A DNA stretch of 64,000 nucleotides from Dongia rigui. Its GTDB lineage: Bacteria > Pseudomonadota > Alphaproteobacteria > Dongiales > Dongiaceae. The first letter of the stretch is position 1; every line of letters starts with the position of its first letter. Where the stretch lies: positions 2,046,001 to 2,110,000 of the forward strand of contig NZ_JAXCLX010000001.1 of assembly GCF_034044635.1 (NCBI RefSeq), read 5' to 3'. Below are positions 2,760 through 37,755 of the stretch, one piece after another. The position numbers and the translations under genes are program-made. Under the pieces are notes generated by a model. The model saw only the letters and a program-made list of their open reading frames with translations, did no database searches and had not been told where the DNA came from.

Positions 2760-3266
2760 TTAAAACAGCCGGCCCTGGCCTTTCTCGATATCGAGGAGGA
2801 AGCGTTTGGCGGTGAGGCCGAGATCGCTGGAATAGCCGCCGAGCTGCGCGGTGCCGATGACGCGGTGACAGGGAATGATGATGGCGATCGGGTTCTGGCC
2901 GCAAGCCGTGCCCACTGCCCGGGCGGCGGTGTATTCCTGCTGGCCCATCAAGGTCGCGAGATCCCCGTAACGCCGGGTCTCACCAAAGGGGATGCGCAAC
3001 AGCATGTTCCAGATCGTTTCCTGGAATTCGGACCCCGGATATTTCAGCGGCAGGTCGAAATCGGTGAGGCGGCCGTCGATGTAAGCCGCCATCTGCTTGC
3101 CCGCTTCCTCGGCCAGAGGTGAGGACACGATCACCTTGGGTTCGATCTTGCGCCAGTGACACTGGATGACGGCCTCTTCATCACAGCGGATTTCGATCCA
3201 GCCGATCTTGGCGCGCAAGGTGACACCAACCGGAATGCCGCCACCCGGCTTTTCGGTCTCGCTCAC
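2760..3266 (-). CDS. ogt: methylated-DNA-[protein]-cysteine S-methyltransferase
   Basis: This suicide DNA-repair protein transfers the methyl group of O6-methylguanine to its own cysteine. The active-site motif PCHRVIG is present (Cys about residue 133), preceded by the helix-turn-helix region with the family's RRYGDLA and ARAVGTACGQNP segments. At 168 residues it is an Ogt-type single-domain enzyme without the AdaA regulatory domain. I chose the GTG at 3266 because it overlaps the hemE stop as GTGA with AAGG nine bases upstream; a TTG three codons earlier (3275) is the alternative. The overlap implies translational coupling with hemE, although the two functions are unrelated. Confidence 0.93.
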   Translation of the reverse strand: MSETEKPGGGIPVGVTLRAKIGWIEIRCDEEAVIQCHWRKIEPKVIVSSPLAEEAGKQMAAYIDGRLTDFDLPLKYPGSEFQETIWNMLLRIPFGETRRYGDLATLMGQQEYTAARAVGTACGQNPIAIIIPCHRVIGTAQLGGYSSDLGLTAKRFLLDIEKGQGRLF

Positions 3267-4303
3267 CGATGCCAACCTTGCACGAGCTTCACCAATTCGC
3301 CCACATGTTCGGGTGGTGTTTCCGGAACAATCCCGTGGCCCAGATTGAAGATGAAGGGCCCACGACCTAGCGTTTCCAGGATCTTCGTCGCCGCATCACG
3401 CATCGCATCGCCACCGGCCACCAGCAATTGCGGATCGAGATTGCCTTGGAGCGCGATGCGCCCTTGCAGCTGGGTAAAGGCCCAGTCGAGCGGCACGCCG
3501 GAATCGAGGCTCAAGCCATGCATGAAGCTGGAACGCGCGAAATCGAGATAACCCGCCCCGCAGGCGCGCGGGAAGACAATCACCGGCACTTCGGGATGCG
3601 ACATGCGTACCCGGTCGACGATGGCCTTCATCGGCGTAAGGCTCCAGCGCAGCAAACCGGCATGGTCGAGCGCACCCGCCCAGCTGTCGAAAATCTGCAG
3701 CACTTCGGCACCGGCTTCGACCTGTGCGATCAGATAGCTCGAGGTCGCATCGATCAGCAGATTCATCAGCCGCTGGAAGCTTTCCGGGCGCTGATAGGCC
3801 CAGGCCTTGGTCTTGGCGTAATCGCGCGACGACCCACCCTCGATCATATAGCTCGCCACCGTCCAGGGAGCCCCGGCAAAGCCAATCAGCGCCGTTTCAG
3901 GGGGGAGCGCTGCCTTGAGGCCGGCAACGGCCGCGTAGACCGGTTTGAGCCGGTTGTGGAACTGGTCCATGCCGAGGCGTGCCATGCCGGCATCGTCGGT
4001 GATGGCGTCAAGCAACGGCCCCCGCCCTTCCTCGAAGCGGAGATCCTGGCCCAGCGCATGTGGCACCACCAAGATGTCGGAAAAGAGAATCGCTGCATCG
4101 AAACCGAAACGGCGGATCGGCTGCAGCGTCACCTCGACGGCGAATTCCGGATTGTAGCAAAGATCCAGGAACGAGCCTGCCTTGGCCCGCGCCGCGCGAT
4201 ATTCCGGCAGATAACGCCCAGCCTGGCGCATCAGCCAGATCGGCGGTCGCGCAAGGCTCTCGCCCTTCAAGGCCCTTACCAGCAATTTCTGAGGCGTCTG
4301 CAT
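3263..4303 (-). CDS. hemE: uroporphyrinogen decarboxylase
   Basis: HemE removes four carboxylates from uroporphyrinogen III to give coproporphyrinogen III in haem synthesis. The 346-residue protein opens with the diagnostic RPPIWLMRQAGRYLPEYR segment (substrate-binding Arg residues) and contains the second family signature GFAGAPWTVASYMIEG. The start at 4303 gives the same spacing to MRQAGRYLPEY as other HemE proteins; an ATG eight codons upstream exists but has no better ribosome site. It is transcribed away from the candidate origin and is translationally coupled to ogt. hemE flanks the chromosome origin in Caulobacter and Rickettsia. Confidence 0.97.
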   Translation of the reverse strand: MQTPQKLLVRALKGESLARPPIWLMRQAGRYLPEYRAARAKAGSFLDLCYNPEFAVEVTLQPIRRFGFDAAILFSDILVVPHALGQDLRFEEGRGPLLDAITDDAGMARLGMDQFHNRLKPVYAAVAGLKAALPPETALIGFAGAPWTVASYMIEGGSSRDYAKTKAWAYQRPESFQRLMNLLIDATSSYLIAQVEAGAEVLQIFDSWAGALDHAGLLRWSLTPMKAIVDRVRMSHPEVPVIVFPRACGAGYLDFARSSFMHGLSLDSGVPLDWAFTQLQGRIALQGNLDPQLLVAGGDAMRDAATKILETLGRGPFIFNLGHGIVPETPPEHVGELVKLVQGWHR

Positions 4304-4400
4304 GGTCTGCTCAGTCCTGATCGTCATTCGGTCTCAATCTTACCAGGGCTCTTCCTACATCTCTAAAAGATAAGACTCTAGGTGGAAGATGATGATGTGC

Positions 4401-4409
4401 GGTGGATAA
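4401..4409 (-). promoter_or_regulatory. DnaA-box-like site
   Basis: GGTGGATAA, which reads TTATCCACC on the minus strand: one mismatch from TTATCCACA. It lies at the hemE-proximal side of the candidate origin, beside GANTC sites at 4413 and 4428. Confidence 0.55.
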
Positions 4410-4533
4410 CGAGAATCCCCGATCTTGGATTCCTATCCTCAGCGGCGATTTGGAAAAGGCTGCGGCTGGCCTTGGGATAGAGATATCGGACAAGTCTGTG
4501 GGCGAACCATCCGGTTGTTGCGACCACGGATTA

Positions 4534-4614
4534 CCGTCATCCCCGGGCGAAGACCCGGGGATCCACGGGTGCAGCTTTCGAGAGTGGATGCCCGGGTCAA
4601 GCCCGGGCATGACG
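4534..4614. repeat. palindromic repeat, family B, copy 1 (inside the candidate origin)
   Basis: Two hairpins in tandem: GTCATCCCCGGG/CCCGGGGAT and ATGCCCGGG/CCCGGGCATGAC, separated by a CCACGGGTGCAG...GAGAGTGG centre. The outer ends GTCAT and ATGAC are complementary. It translates into the MPGLDPGIH-type peptide often misannotated as a small protein. Copies of the same family are at 8656, 9664 and 37654. Confidence 0.75.
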
Positions 4615-4634
4615 AAATTGGAATAGGTGAATCC

Positions 4635-4677
4635 TGTGGATGACTTGGAACCGGCGCCGTCATCCACCTTATCCCCG
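4635..4677. promoter_or_regulatory. cluster of DnaA-box-like sites
   Basis: TGTGGATGA (4635-4643, reads TCATCCACA), TCATCCACC (4660-4668) and TTATCCCCG (4669-4677) lie within 43 bases. Each differs by one or two bases from TTATCCACA, which suggests lower-affinity DnaA sites. Confidence 0.5.
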
Positions 4678-4767
4678 GGATTCGACCCCTGCTTCGCCCG
4701 CTCTTGTCAGGCGGGAAAAGGGGTGCCATGAAAAGATAACAAAGATGAATGGATCGGGAGATCTCGC

Positions 4768-4814
4768 TTATCCACAGCATCCAAGGCAGTTATCAACGCC
4801 CCTCTTGTGGATAG
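4768..4814. promoter_or_regulatory. DnaA boxes at the ppsR side of the candidate origin
   Basis: A perfect TTATCCACA at 4768-4776 is followed by TTATCAACG (4790-4798) and, on the opposite strand, TGTGGATAG (4806-4814). The spacing is roughly two DNA turns between successive sites. This is the densest group of boxes in the gap. Confidence 0.7.
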
Positions 4815-4854
4815 TCTGATATTCCAGTCCTCTCAACAGGCAGAGGCCTTCGCA

Positions 4855-5727
4855 ATGCCCAATACGCAACCGCCGCGCCAGCTGCATGTTCATCTCGTCT
4901 CGGACGCCACCGGCGAGACGCTGAACAGCATCACCCGCGCCTGTCTGGTGCAGTTCGAGCGCGCGCATCCGATCGAACACCATTGGACGCTTATCCGCAC
5001 GACCGGACAGATGGACAAGGTGCTCTCCGGCATCGAGGCCCATCCCGGCCTGGTGCTGTTCACTGTCGTCAATGACCGGCTGCGCCAGCATCTCTTGAAT
5101 GGTTGTCGGCAGCTCGGCGTGAAATTCGTTTCGGTGCTGGATCCGATCATCTCAGCCCTCACCGATCATTTCGGCCAGGTCGCGCGCGGTCAATCCGGCC
5201 GGCAGCACGCACTGGACGCCGAGTATTTTGACCGCATCGCTGCCATGGATTTTGCCCTCGCCCACGATGATGGCCAATCGGCGCGCAACTACGAGGATGC
5301 CGATGTGATCCTTATCGGCGTCAGCCGCTCCTCAAAGACGCCGACCTGCATCTATCTCGCCAATCGCGGTGTAAAGGCCGCCAACATTCCGCTGGTGCCC
5401 AATTGTCCGCTGCCGCCGGAATTGTTTCAGGTCAAGAAGCCGCTGGTCATCGGCCTCACCAAGGACGTGAACTCACTGGTGCAGATCCGGCGCAACCGAT
5501 TGGCCATGATCGCCAAGGATGAGGATTCGGATTATGTCGATCCGCAATCGATCCGCGATGAGGTGGCCCAGGCGCGGAAGCTTTGCACCGAGCACAATTG
5601 GCCGATGATTGATGTGACGCGGCGCTCGATCGAGGAAACCGCGGCGACAATCATCCAGATGCTGAGCGAGCATCGCGACGCGCTGCTCGATGCCAAATCC
5701 GCTGCCGAAAGCCGCGAGCAGGCATGA
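4855..5727 (+). CDS. ppsR: pyruvate, phosphate dikinase regulatory protein (bifunctional kinase/phosphorylase, DUF299)
   Basis: This DUF299 protein controls pyruvate, phosphate dikinase or PEP synthase by ADP-dependent phosphorylation and Pi-dependent dephosphorylation of an active-site Thr. The 290-residue sequence has the N-terminal HLVSDATGETLNS signature (13-25) and the P-loop GVSRSSKT (155-162). The start at 4855 matches the usual N-terminus; 16 upstream in-frame codons run through a DnaA box and were rejected. It is the RP001 gene of the alphaproteobacterial origin cluster. Its stop overlaps the maf start (ATGA), so ppsR-maf-aroE is one coupled operon reading away from the origin. The target enzyme is not in this window. 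Confidence 0.93.
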   Translation: MPNTQPPRQLHVHLVSDATGETLNSITRACLVQFERAHPIEHHWTLIRTTGQMDKVLSGIEAHPGLVLFTVVNDRLRQHLLNGCRQLGVKFVSVLDPIISALTDHFGQVARGQSGRQHALDAEYFDRIAAMDFALAHDDGQSARNYEDADVILIGVSRSSKTPTCIYLANRGVKAANIPLVPNCPLPPELFQVKKPLVIGLTKDVNSLVQIRRNRLAMIAKDEDSDYVDPQSIRDEVAQARKLCTEHNWPMIDVTRRSIEETAATIIQMLSEHRDALLDAKSAAESREQA

Positions 5728-6323
5728 CGGTCTCGCTGGTATTGGCATCCGGCAGCGCCGCCCGTGCCAAGATGCTGCGCGATGCCGGTGTCACGCTCGA
5801 GATCATCAAGCCCGCCGTCGATGAGGACGAGCTGAAAGCCAGCTACCGCGCCGAAGGCGCCGATGTCATCGACACGGCAATCGCCCTGGCCGAGATGAAA
5901 GCCCAGGCGGTCAGCCGCAAGCAGGACGGACGCTATGTTCTGGGTGCCGACCAGATGCTGGAATGCGAGGGCGTCTGGTTCGACAAGCCCGCCGATATCG
6001 CTGCCGCCCGTGCGCAGTTGAAGGCGCTGCGCGGCAGGAAGCATCATCTGATCAGTGCCGCGGTGCTGGTAAAGGACGGGCAGCGCCTGTGGCATCATGT
6101 CGACCGCGCCGAGCTCACCATGCGCGACGTCAGCGATGAATTCCTGGAATGGTATCTGGCGCTGGCGGGCGATGCCGTCACGGCCTCGGTCGGCGCCTAT
6201 CACCTCGAAGGCCTGGGTGCGCAGCTGATGACACGGGTGCGCGGCGATTTCTTCACCGTGCTGGGCCTGCCGCTGCTCCCCGTCTTGGCGATTTTGCGCA
6301 GCCATGGCATGTTGCGCGCATGA
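5724..6323 (+). CDS. maf: Maf-like nucleoside triphosphate pyrophosphatase
   Basis: Maf proteins hydrolyse non-canonical or methylated nucleoside triphosphates (dTTP/UTP or m7GTP, according to subfamily) to monophosphates, a house-cleaning role. The 199-residue protein begins with LASGSAARAKML, the family substrate-binding signature, followed by a conserved acidic DEDELK segment and a GADQMLECEG motif in place of the commoner ADT. It overlaps ppsR by four bases and aroE by four bases (ATGA at each join), so the three are translationally coupled. The ADQ motif makes a YceF-like substrate choice uncertain. Confidence 0.9.
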   Translation: MTVSLVLASGSAARAKMLRDAGVTLEIIKPAVDEDELKASYRAEGADVIDTAIALAEMKAQAVSRKQDGRYVLGADQMLECEGVWFDKPADIAAARAQLKALRGRKHHLISAAVLVKDGQRLWHHVDRAELTMRDVSDEFLEWYLALAGDAVTASVGAYHLEGLGAQLMTRVRGDFFTVLGLPLLPVLAILRSHGMLRA

Positions 6324-7186
6324 CAGCCAAACAGACTGAAATGAGTTTCAAGACGCAATCGGGCAAGACCCTCGTGGCCGGTGTCTTCGGCTGGCCGATC
6401 AACCATTCGCGCAGCCCGCGCCTTCATGGCTATTGGCTGGCGAAATATGGCATCGACGGCGCTTACCTGCCGTTCTCGACGCGGCCGGAGAATCTGGTTG
6501 ATGCGATCCGCGCCCTGCCCAAGCTCGGCTTTCGTGGCGGCAACATCACGCTGCCGCATAAGGAACGCGCGCTCGACGCGGTCGATCATTTAAGCGATGT
6601 TGCACGCCGCATCGGTGCCATCAACACGCTCATTGTGCAGGATGACGGCAGCATCCATGGCGACAACACCGACGGCTACGGCTTTGTCGAGCATCTCAAA
6701 GCCAGTGCGCCGCATTGGCATCCGGGCTACAAGGCGGTGGTTCTCGGCGCTGGCGGTGCCGCGCGTGGCATCATCGTTGCCTTGCAAGATGCCGGTGTCT
6801 CGAACATCGTCATCACCAACCGCACGGCGGCCCGCGCCGACAGCCTCGCCAACACGCTTGATGGCGCCGTCGACGTGGTGGGCTGGGACGACCGTGCGGC
6901 GGCGCTGAAGGACGCGACCCTGCTGGTCAACACCACGCAACTCGGCCAGGCGGGGCAACCACCTCTCGACATCGATTTGAAGCACCTGCCGCGCGAGGCG
7001 GTCGTCGACGACATCGTCTATGTCCCGCTGGAAACCGATCTGCTGAGGGAGGCCAAGGCGCGCGGCAACGCGACGGTCGATGGCATTGGCATGCTCCTCC
7101 ACCAGGCGCGGCCCGGCTTCAAGTCCTGGTTCGGCAAGGAACCGGAAGTAGACAGCGCGTTACGCGATTTCGTGCTGGCGGGCTAG
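6320..7186 (+). CDS. aroE: shikimate dehydrogenase (NADP+)
   Basis: AroE reduces 3-dehydroshikimate to shikimate with NADPH in aromatic amino-acid synthesis. The 288-residue protein shows the substrate-binding SRSP motif (30-33), the catalytic Lys in NITLPHKE (about residue 81), the NTDGYGF motif with its Asp, and the dinucleotide-binding GAGGAARGI turn followed by NRT, typical of NADP preference. The start at 6320 overlaps the maf stop as ATGA; an internal Met at 6341 lacks a ribosome site. In Caulobacter and Rickettsia coaE and dnaQ usually follow; here the cluster stops at aroE, whose stop codon shares a CTAG palindrome with the convergent TetR gene. Confidence 0.95.
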   Translation: MTAKQTEMSFKTQSGKTLVAGVFGWPINHSRSPRLHGYWLAKYGIDGAYLPFSTRPENLVDAIRALPKLGFRGGNITLPHKERALDAVDHLSDVARRIGAINTLIVQDDGSIHGDNTDGYGFVEHLKASAPHWHPGYKAVVLGAGGAARGIIVALQDAGVSNIVITNRTAARADSLANTLDGAVDVVGWDDRAAALKDATLLVNTTQLGQAGQPPLDIDLKHLPREAVVDDIVYVPLETDLLREAKARGNATVDGIGMLLHQARPGFKSWFGKEPEVDSALRDFVLAG

Positions 7187-37653: not shown

Positions 37654-37755
37654 TCGTCATGCCCGGGCTTGGCCCGGGCATCCACGAGTTTGCCAGTAAG
37701 CGGGTGATTTGTGGAAAGAAACTCGTGGATCCCCGCACCAAGTGCGGCGATGACA
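37654..37755. repeat. palindromic repeat, family B, copy 4
   Basis: Left hairpin ATGCCCGGGCTTGGCCCGGGCAT, then CCACGAGTTTGCC and GGAAAGAAACTCGTGGAT arms, then CCCCGCACCAAGTGCGG with a GATGAC end. It sits between fdsD and the LysR gene. Same core as the copies at 8656 and 9664. Confidence 0.85.

Follow-up and report, generated by a model that had tools for sequence, protein, structure and literature searches.

Does the gap between hemE and ppsR hold the origin (oriC) from which this Dongia-like alphaproteobacterium replicates its chromosome, as the original prediction proposed, and if it does, which part of the gap might be opened first? The DNA analysed, referred to as the window, is a 64-kb stretch (G000:C1:2046001-2110000) on contig C1 of a 4.66-Mb genome in ten contigs. 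Among named records, the nearest relatives of its PpsR were those of a groundwater MAG labelled Proteobacteria bacterium (95%) and of two Dongia MAGs (88% and 91%), the PpsR of Dongia mobilis strain CGMCC 1.7660 standing at 85% in the same comparison. Among the matches listed in the openly available literature, no Dongia origin was found in print.

Gene neighbourhood and DnaA boxes of the gap

The gap is framed and followed by four genes:

3263 to 4327, minus strand: hemE, uroporphyrinogen decarboxylase, left boundary, reading away from the gap (NCBIfam TIGR01464, 413 bits, above the cut-off)
4855 to 5727, plus strand: ppsR (RP001/COG1806 type), right boundary, reading away from the gap (NCBIfam NF003742, 340 bits, above the cut-off)
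5724 to 6323, plus strand: maf-like gene (NCBIfam NF002690, 204 bits, below the cut-off of 269; TIGR00172 maf, 107.7 bits, also below the cut-off)
6320 to 7186, plus strand: aroE, shikimate dehydrogenase (NCBIfam NF001312, 387 bits, above the cut-off)

The NCBIfam matches bore out the predicted order of hemE, gap and ppsR-maf-aroE, with maf being only maf-like by its scores, and the flanking genes indeed read away, hemE leftward and the other three rightward. The gap itself comprises 4328-4854, its left edge being uncertain by 24 bases because hemE may start at 4327 or at 4303. Divergent hemE and COG1806/ppsR are the boundaries of the alphaproteobacterial hemE-COG1806 type of origin, and the AT content of the gap (46%, compared to about 37-38% across the 64-kb window) is high, as in origins. 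The same arrangement recurs in the family, where ppsR was found in 16 of 17 genomes and adjoins a divergent hemE in 15 of those 16, one inserted gene intervening in the sixteenth.

Scans for DnaA boxes and GANTC, together with an alignment of five gaps (the window and L069-L072), marked the following sites:

4768 to 4776, plus strand: perfect DnaA box TTATCCACA, first member of the array near ppsR, unchanged throughout the five-gap alignment
4790 to 4798, plus strand: DnaA-like site TTATCAACG, 22 bases from the perfect box, with TTATCAAC identical in all five aligned gaps
4806 to 4814, minus strand: DnaA box CTATCCACA, one mismatch, third of the array, with TGTGGA identical in all five aligned gaps
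4635 to 4643, minus strand: DnaA box TCATCCACA, one mismatch (box scan)
4401 to 4409, minus strand: DnaA box TTATCCACC, one mismatch, adjoining a trio-like repeat (box scan)
4669 to 4683, plus strand: TTATCCCCGGGATTC, a box-like site with a GANTC, partly conserved (box/GANTC scan and five-gap alignment)
4703 to 4731, plus strand: partly conserved block CTTGTCAGGCGGGAAAAGGGGTGCCATGA, possibly a ppsR promoter or protein site (five-gap alignment)

The perfect box anticipated at 4768 is present on the plus strand, and the weaker boxes expected on both strands were also recovered: those at 4401, 4635 and 4806, all on the minus strand, carry one mismatch, so that the gap holds four boxes with at most one mismatch and, again counting 4768, nine with at most two. 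Since boxes with at most one mismatch number 253 in the 4.66-Mb genome, only about 0.03 would be expected per 528 bases; dinucleotide shuffles of the gap contained 0.09 on average, and neither the four boxes with at most one mismatch nor the nine with at most two were reached in any of 3000 shuffles. A scan for clusters covered 1.264 of the 4.66 Mb (27% of the genome), the window among it, and the runner-up there, a stretch of ~520 bases, had two boxes with at most one mismatch, or six with at most two; the cluster in the gap is beyond chance and unmatched elsewhere in that 1.264 Mb. It is to be noted that TTATCCACA with up to one mismatch is rarer genome-wide than its reversed pattern (253 vs 452), as though the genome avoided boxes other than those of the origin.

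The five-gap alignment revealed that the gap is conserved mainly at its two ends. The most conserved stretch is 4351-4420, which is almost invariant, and the cores at 4768, 4790 and 4806 are invariant together with their spacing; 4669-4683 and 4703-4731 are partly invariant, and 4440-4620 is scarcely conserved. No consensus sigma-70 promoter was found in the 4703-4731 block. The box at 4401 is retained in one of the four aligned relatives and degenerate in the other three, and canonical boxes fade outside the genus, L115 (genome G013) and L118 having none with at most one mismatch.

Four GANTC sites within 271 bases had also been put forward as a sign of the origin. The count was correct (4413-4683), and a fifth site lies at 4374, giving five in the gap against a window average of 0.75 per 527 bases. 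However, dinucleotide shuffles of the gap had a mean of 3.7, with at least five in 938 of 3000, and GANTC was rejected as an origin mark, its number being one that the dinucleotide make-up of the gap can account for. A CcrM-like protein with a RAMA domain is encoded at C1:1170 kb, and among 14 control genomes a match to the RAMA-domain family was obtained for Caulobacter only; any role of CcrM and GANTC in the timing of replication would be conjectural.

Chromosome-scale signals and the dnaA locus

A ParB gene scoring above the cut-off and a ParA-like gene scoring below the curated cut-off lie at C1:2028.7-2030.5 kb, followed by gidB, gidA and trmE up to 2034.7 kb, with hemH and rho further on (2039.6-2044.2 kb) and hemE after them; we take the gene cluster at parAB to resemble the parAB neighbourhood of Caulobacter. 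Perfect parS sites are located on C1 at 2031.1 and 2033.2 kb, and one with a single mismatch at 2032.0 kb, which places parAB/parS 17-19 kb to the left of the gap, close enough to accord with an origin there. Two other perfect parS sites lie far from parAB, at G000:C1:589284 and G000:C3:544004.

A dnaA-parAB cluster had been named as the kind of place where an origin would speak against the gap. As it turned out, parAB is near the gap, whereas dnaA is on another contig, C3, between genes that we take to be rpsT and dnaN from their translations, without a family search. As in many bacteria, replication could begin at this rpsT-dnaA-dnaN locus, in which case the boxes between hemE and ppsR would merely regulate those two genes. 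There is a perfect TTATCCACA upstream of dnaA (C3:671624), and the R. centenum genome paper suggested dnaA-dnaN as the general place of the origin in that species (PMC2890560). The 1.3 kb examined at dnaA, however, contained only one box with up to two mismatches, the nearest perfect parS on C3 (the site at 544004) is ~128 kb from dnaA, and the only ParB-family match on that contig is weak and ~300 kb away; an origin at dnaA is therefore scarcely credible. A position for the origin is of particular use in this lineage, where GC skew is weak and origins are hard to call, the R. centenum paper having resorted to dnaA-dnaN.

Cumulative GC skew, which the original prediction had suggested as a check, was too flat on the genome's own contig for confirmation. 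On C1, of which 1.22 of 2.45 Mb were sampled, the curve declines as far as 1.4 Mb, changes little between there and 2.25 Mb and then climbs; its minimum bin, 2.15-2.20 Mb, is 0.1-0.15 Mb from the gap, in a draft whose contigs are unordered. This skew is weak, and agrees with an origin at 2.05 Mb without proving one. The relative G013 is a single 5.87-Mb contig, in which 20 samples were positive in 9 of 9 cases over 0-2.4 Mb and negative in 9 of 11 over 2.7-5.58 Mb. When 5.44-5.86 Mb was read every 5 kb, the cumulative minimum fell at 5.635 Mb, within a noisy trough of ~5.53-5.65 Mb; the hemE-ppsR gap of G013 is at 5.592 Mb, 43 kb from this minimum, and parS sites are at 5.607 and 5.609 Mb. The strand bias of the genes around the gap had no clear pattern. 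The sole SSU rRNA match lies at the start of contig C7, and rRNA orientation says nothing on the origin.

Considering the gene order, the box cluster, parS and parAB 17-19 kb away, the conservation of box positions and the skew minimum near the same gap in a relative, we conclude that 4328-4854 is very probably the chromosomal origin of this Dongia-like alphaproteobacterium, a predicted function to which we assign a probability of about 0.93; the placement between hemE and ppsR is thus upheld. The origin is of a known kind. Like the Caulobacter crescentus Cori and Rickettsia prowazekii origins described in PMC1914354, it is flanked by hemE and COG1806 (RP001/ppsR), with DnaA boxes between. It differs from them in that no CtrA (TTAA-N7-TTAA) or IHF consensus site was found in the gap, dnaA is not nearby, and a REP pair occupies the spacer. 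In Caulobacter, parS is within 8 kb of the origin (PMC4468827), as opposed to 17-19 kb here. The predicted COG1253-hemE origins of Wolbachia, Ehrlichia and Anaplasma (PMC1914354) are similar in the hemE boundary, the boxes in one gap and the limited use of GC skew, but here the right boundary is COG1806/ppsR rather than COG1253; the same paper takes the COG1806/ppsR boundary as the ancestral state.

The REP pair in the spacer

The original prediction regarded the presence of a repeat inside the origin as odd. The repeat is indeed there, and was located by pattern search:

4535 to 4614, unstranded: two inverted REP palindromes that form a BIME-like pair within the variable spacer

Strict REP halves number 131 genome-wide; of the 100 listed, most form inverted pairs, and the spacing within pairs is mostly 50-55 bases start to start. 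The repeats therefore resemble bacterial REP/BIME elements, which are dispersed inverted pairs of short palindromes, and the window copy is unlike them in lying inside an origin. Six Dongia-type gaps were compared, namely the window and L104-L108, a set that overlaps the five-gap alignment (L069-L072 repeat L104-L106 and L108). For L070 and L071, gap lengths and box places match those of L105 and L106, while the contigs of L069 and L072 equal in length those of L104 (G005:C2) and L108 (G002:C3). It was found that the full pair is present in three of the six (L103, L104 and L106, the window included); of the others, L105 had no match, and L107 and L108 had one loose palindrome match each. Recurrence in half of these gaps might suggest that the pair is a working part of the origin, but its absence from the other three, its position in the least conserved stretch and its being one of many copies make this very improbable. 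Because the spacer lies between two conserved ends and is itself unconserved, the REP pair is best read as a tolerated insertion, a dispersed element that has entered the unconserved spacer, which accounts for the oddity. By eye, the two halves are swapped between the window and L069, its closest relative, as if flipped or converted in place, and the L105 gap (G007) has, at the place of the pair, a degenerate stretch like one REP half, as if decayed. The only other REP copy found in the 64-kb window is one half at 37655-37684.

The hemE-side module and its triplets

The unexpected part of this origin is the module at its hemE side, along with its deviant triplets. Its components are as follows:

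4351 to 4421, plus strand: conserved module on the hemE side, made up of an AT-rich tract, a trinucleotide repeat and DnaA-like sites, and proposed to be the unwinding element (alignment, model R1)
4356 to 4380, unstranded: AT-rich part of the module, a putative melting site; 40-mers starting at 4356-4359 have the highest AT content in the gap (65%)
4385 to 4396, minus strand: four DnaA-trio-like triplets, ATC ATC ATC TTC on the box strand, with a 4-base spacer to the box (published box/spacer/trio rule)
4413 to 4421, unstranded: GAATCCCCG, second box-like site of the module (alignments)

The box at 4401 (minus strand) and the run at 4385-4396 form the only site in the window with a box of at most one mismatch and a run of at least four triplets; a looser rule (at most two mismatches, at least three triplets) is satisfied at 12 places in the 64 kb. 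All four triplet centres are A in the window. By the rule of the basal origin unwinding system (BUS, made of a DnaA box and DnaA-trios), namely a box with at most two mismatches, a spacer of 0-16 and at least three NAN trios, the window module passes, with a spacer of 4 and four trios, as does the same module in L104, while those in L105, L106, L107 and L108 fail. The repeat in the window's genus is GATGATGATG, of another register, and its TNG runs are only 1.

To follow the module beyond the genus, a sequence-only model, R1, was built from the hemE-side block of 20 synteny-chosen gaps (14 from the family and 6 others, the window included). Training excluded the divergent L112, L116 (whose piece has no hemE), L088, the nearly identical Azospirillum gaps L076-L084, and L069-L072 as repeats of L104-L106 and L108. 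In its own genome, R1 matched the hemE-side module and nothing else (E 1.6e-11, with the window in training), and in the family it gave one match each in 15 of 17 genomes, the misses being G010 (68% complete, ppsR not found) and G012 (whose gap was left out of training as divergent). Loci outside training, namely G014 and the Azospirillum loci L076 and L082, were also matched; L088 was not. Run under strict filters on 385 alphaproteobacterial genomes, this 68-base model matched 89 of them, once each, and gave no match in 296. The 84 matches outside the family comprise 70 inside a hemE-ppsR gap, 10 beside hemE in 3-5 kb pieces without ppsR, two classed as ppsR-side only and two beside neither gene; that is, 82 of 84 adjoin hemE and/or ppsR, although some of the 84 genomes are probably close kin of the six non-family training loci (L201, for example, resembles the Skermanella gaps). 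The module had the same orientation at every locus in which hemE or ppsR was recovered.

In the BUS papers (PMC8287927, PMC6669920), the DnaA-trio rule calls for at least three 3'-NAN-5' triplets no more than 16 bases from a box, and the authors suspect that deviant trios lacking the central adenine exist. The module resembles that system in having a DnaA box, a short spacer, a triplet repeat and an AT-rich tract in the same order (same sources). In the 82 alphaproteobacterial matches near hemE or ppsR, an AT-rich tract is followed by ~25-30 bases that contain TNG triplets and in which C is rare or absent, and then by CCTGTGGATA-n-CGGGGATT. The polarity of the trios relative to the box strand presumably agrees with BUS, known from B. 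subtilis, as well. Unlike in BUS, 5'-TNG-3' (3'-GNT-5') predominates among the triplets of the 82 matches, the central base being A, T or G: the best TNG runs have 106 A, 100 T, 61 G and 1 C there, and a central A is not conserved across the group.

TNG runs in the 82 averaged 3.27 triplets compared to 1.23 in shuffles, and NAN runs 2.43 compared to 2.29, a value of 2.43 being reached by 6 of 100 shuffles. These statistics are biased upward because the matches were found with a model trained on the 20 gaps. In the 20 synteny-chosen gaps themselves, a 3-base period was evident (lag-3 identity 0.45 vs 0.30, 0 of 400 single-base shuffles), and it persisted when the set was thinned to 13 gaps, including three of the window's genus (0 of 2000 shuffles). 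The register was not singled out in these 20, where TNG runs were 2.00 against 1.18 when shuffled, yet GNT was 2.10 and NTG 2.15; only among the 82, with their bias, does TNG exceed the other registers (3.27 vs 2.00 and 1.88). Tentatively, and with slightly more doubt than confidence, we propose that Alphaproteobacteria share an origin-opening module consisting of an AT-rich tract, 5'-TNG-3' triplets and paired sites near TGTGGATAnCGGGGATT, a unit of its own beside hemE or ppsR. It would represent the suspected deviant DnaA-trio without a central A, seen by DnaA as 3'-GNT-5' with a centre that is hardly ever C, and the window's triplets would have drifted to 3'-TAG-5'. Among the matches listed in the openly available literature, no alphaproteobacterial trio element was found in print.

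Other roles of the module have to be weighed against this. It could be a hemE promoter, mRNA leader or RNA element outside origin function, considering that it is beside hemE in most of the 84 loci and that a divergent gap is expected to hold promoters. Nonetheless, its distance to hemE varies, a scan for sigma-70-type promoters, the only type scanned, found none, and an Rfam search gave chance-level matches only and no family. Moreover, in L232 and L248, of one genus, a TauD-family gene parts the module from hemE by ~1.2 kb, and in L267 rho takes the place of hemE, with ppsR still ~350 bases away in all three; the module also remains near hemE in the ten pieces lacking ppsR, and in L229 and L231 it is next to maf, ppsR not being found. 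Since it is kept despite inserted, replaced or absent neighbour genes, the module appears to be more than a hemE leader or ppsR promoter, and such a plain role is unlikely, indeed decidedly so. Less easily set aside, but still on the unlikely side, is a module that binds a regulator or bending protein in a genuine origin that melts elsewhere, e.g., in the 62.5% AT stretch from near 4731. In its favour, the triplets differ among lineages, A-centred runs barely exceed shuffles in the 82, and the 4401 box is not conserved in the genus; against it, AT-rich tract, triplets, spacer and paired box-like sites follow one another as they do in the unwinding system described in print.

The location of the origin is well supported, and it is the unwinding role of the module that we infer. 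If the module does unwind the origin, DnaA would bind the ppsR-side array (4768-4814) and the scattered weaker boxes, and its loading would extend to the hemE side, as far as the two box-like sites at 4401-4421. DnaA may then run onto the single-stranded trio-like triplets at 4385-4396 and melt the AT-rich tract at ~4356-4380, whereupon the helicase would load and two forks would leave, one past hemE and the other past ppsR; ParAB would segregate the new origins through parS 17-19 kb to the left. The question of which single-strand sequence DnaA recognises could then be tested on trios that lack a central A, in a class that includes the laboratory model Caulobacter, and the class-wide module with its deviant triplets is the part most worth the attention of specialists.

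Several loci merit separate mention. The R1 matches near neither gene, L252 and L275, may be chance matches or relocated origins. The gene between hemE and the module in the two loci of one genus encodes a TauD-family dioxygenase (L232 1362-2459, L248 1364-2461). In G014, a single-contig relative, a major-facilitator (MFS) transporter gene (L179 10937-12268) lies between the module and ppsR.
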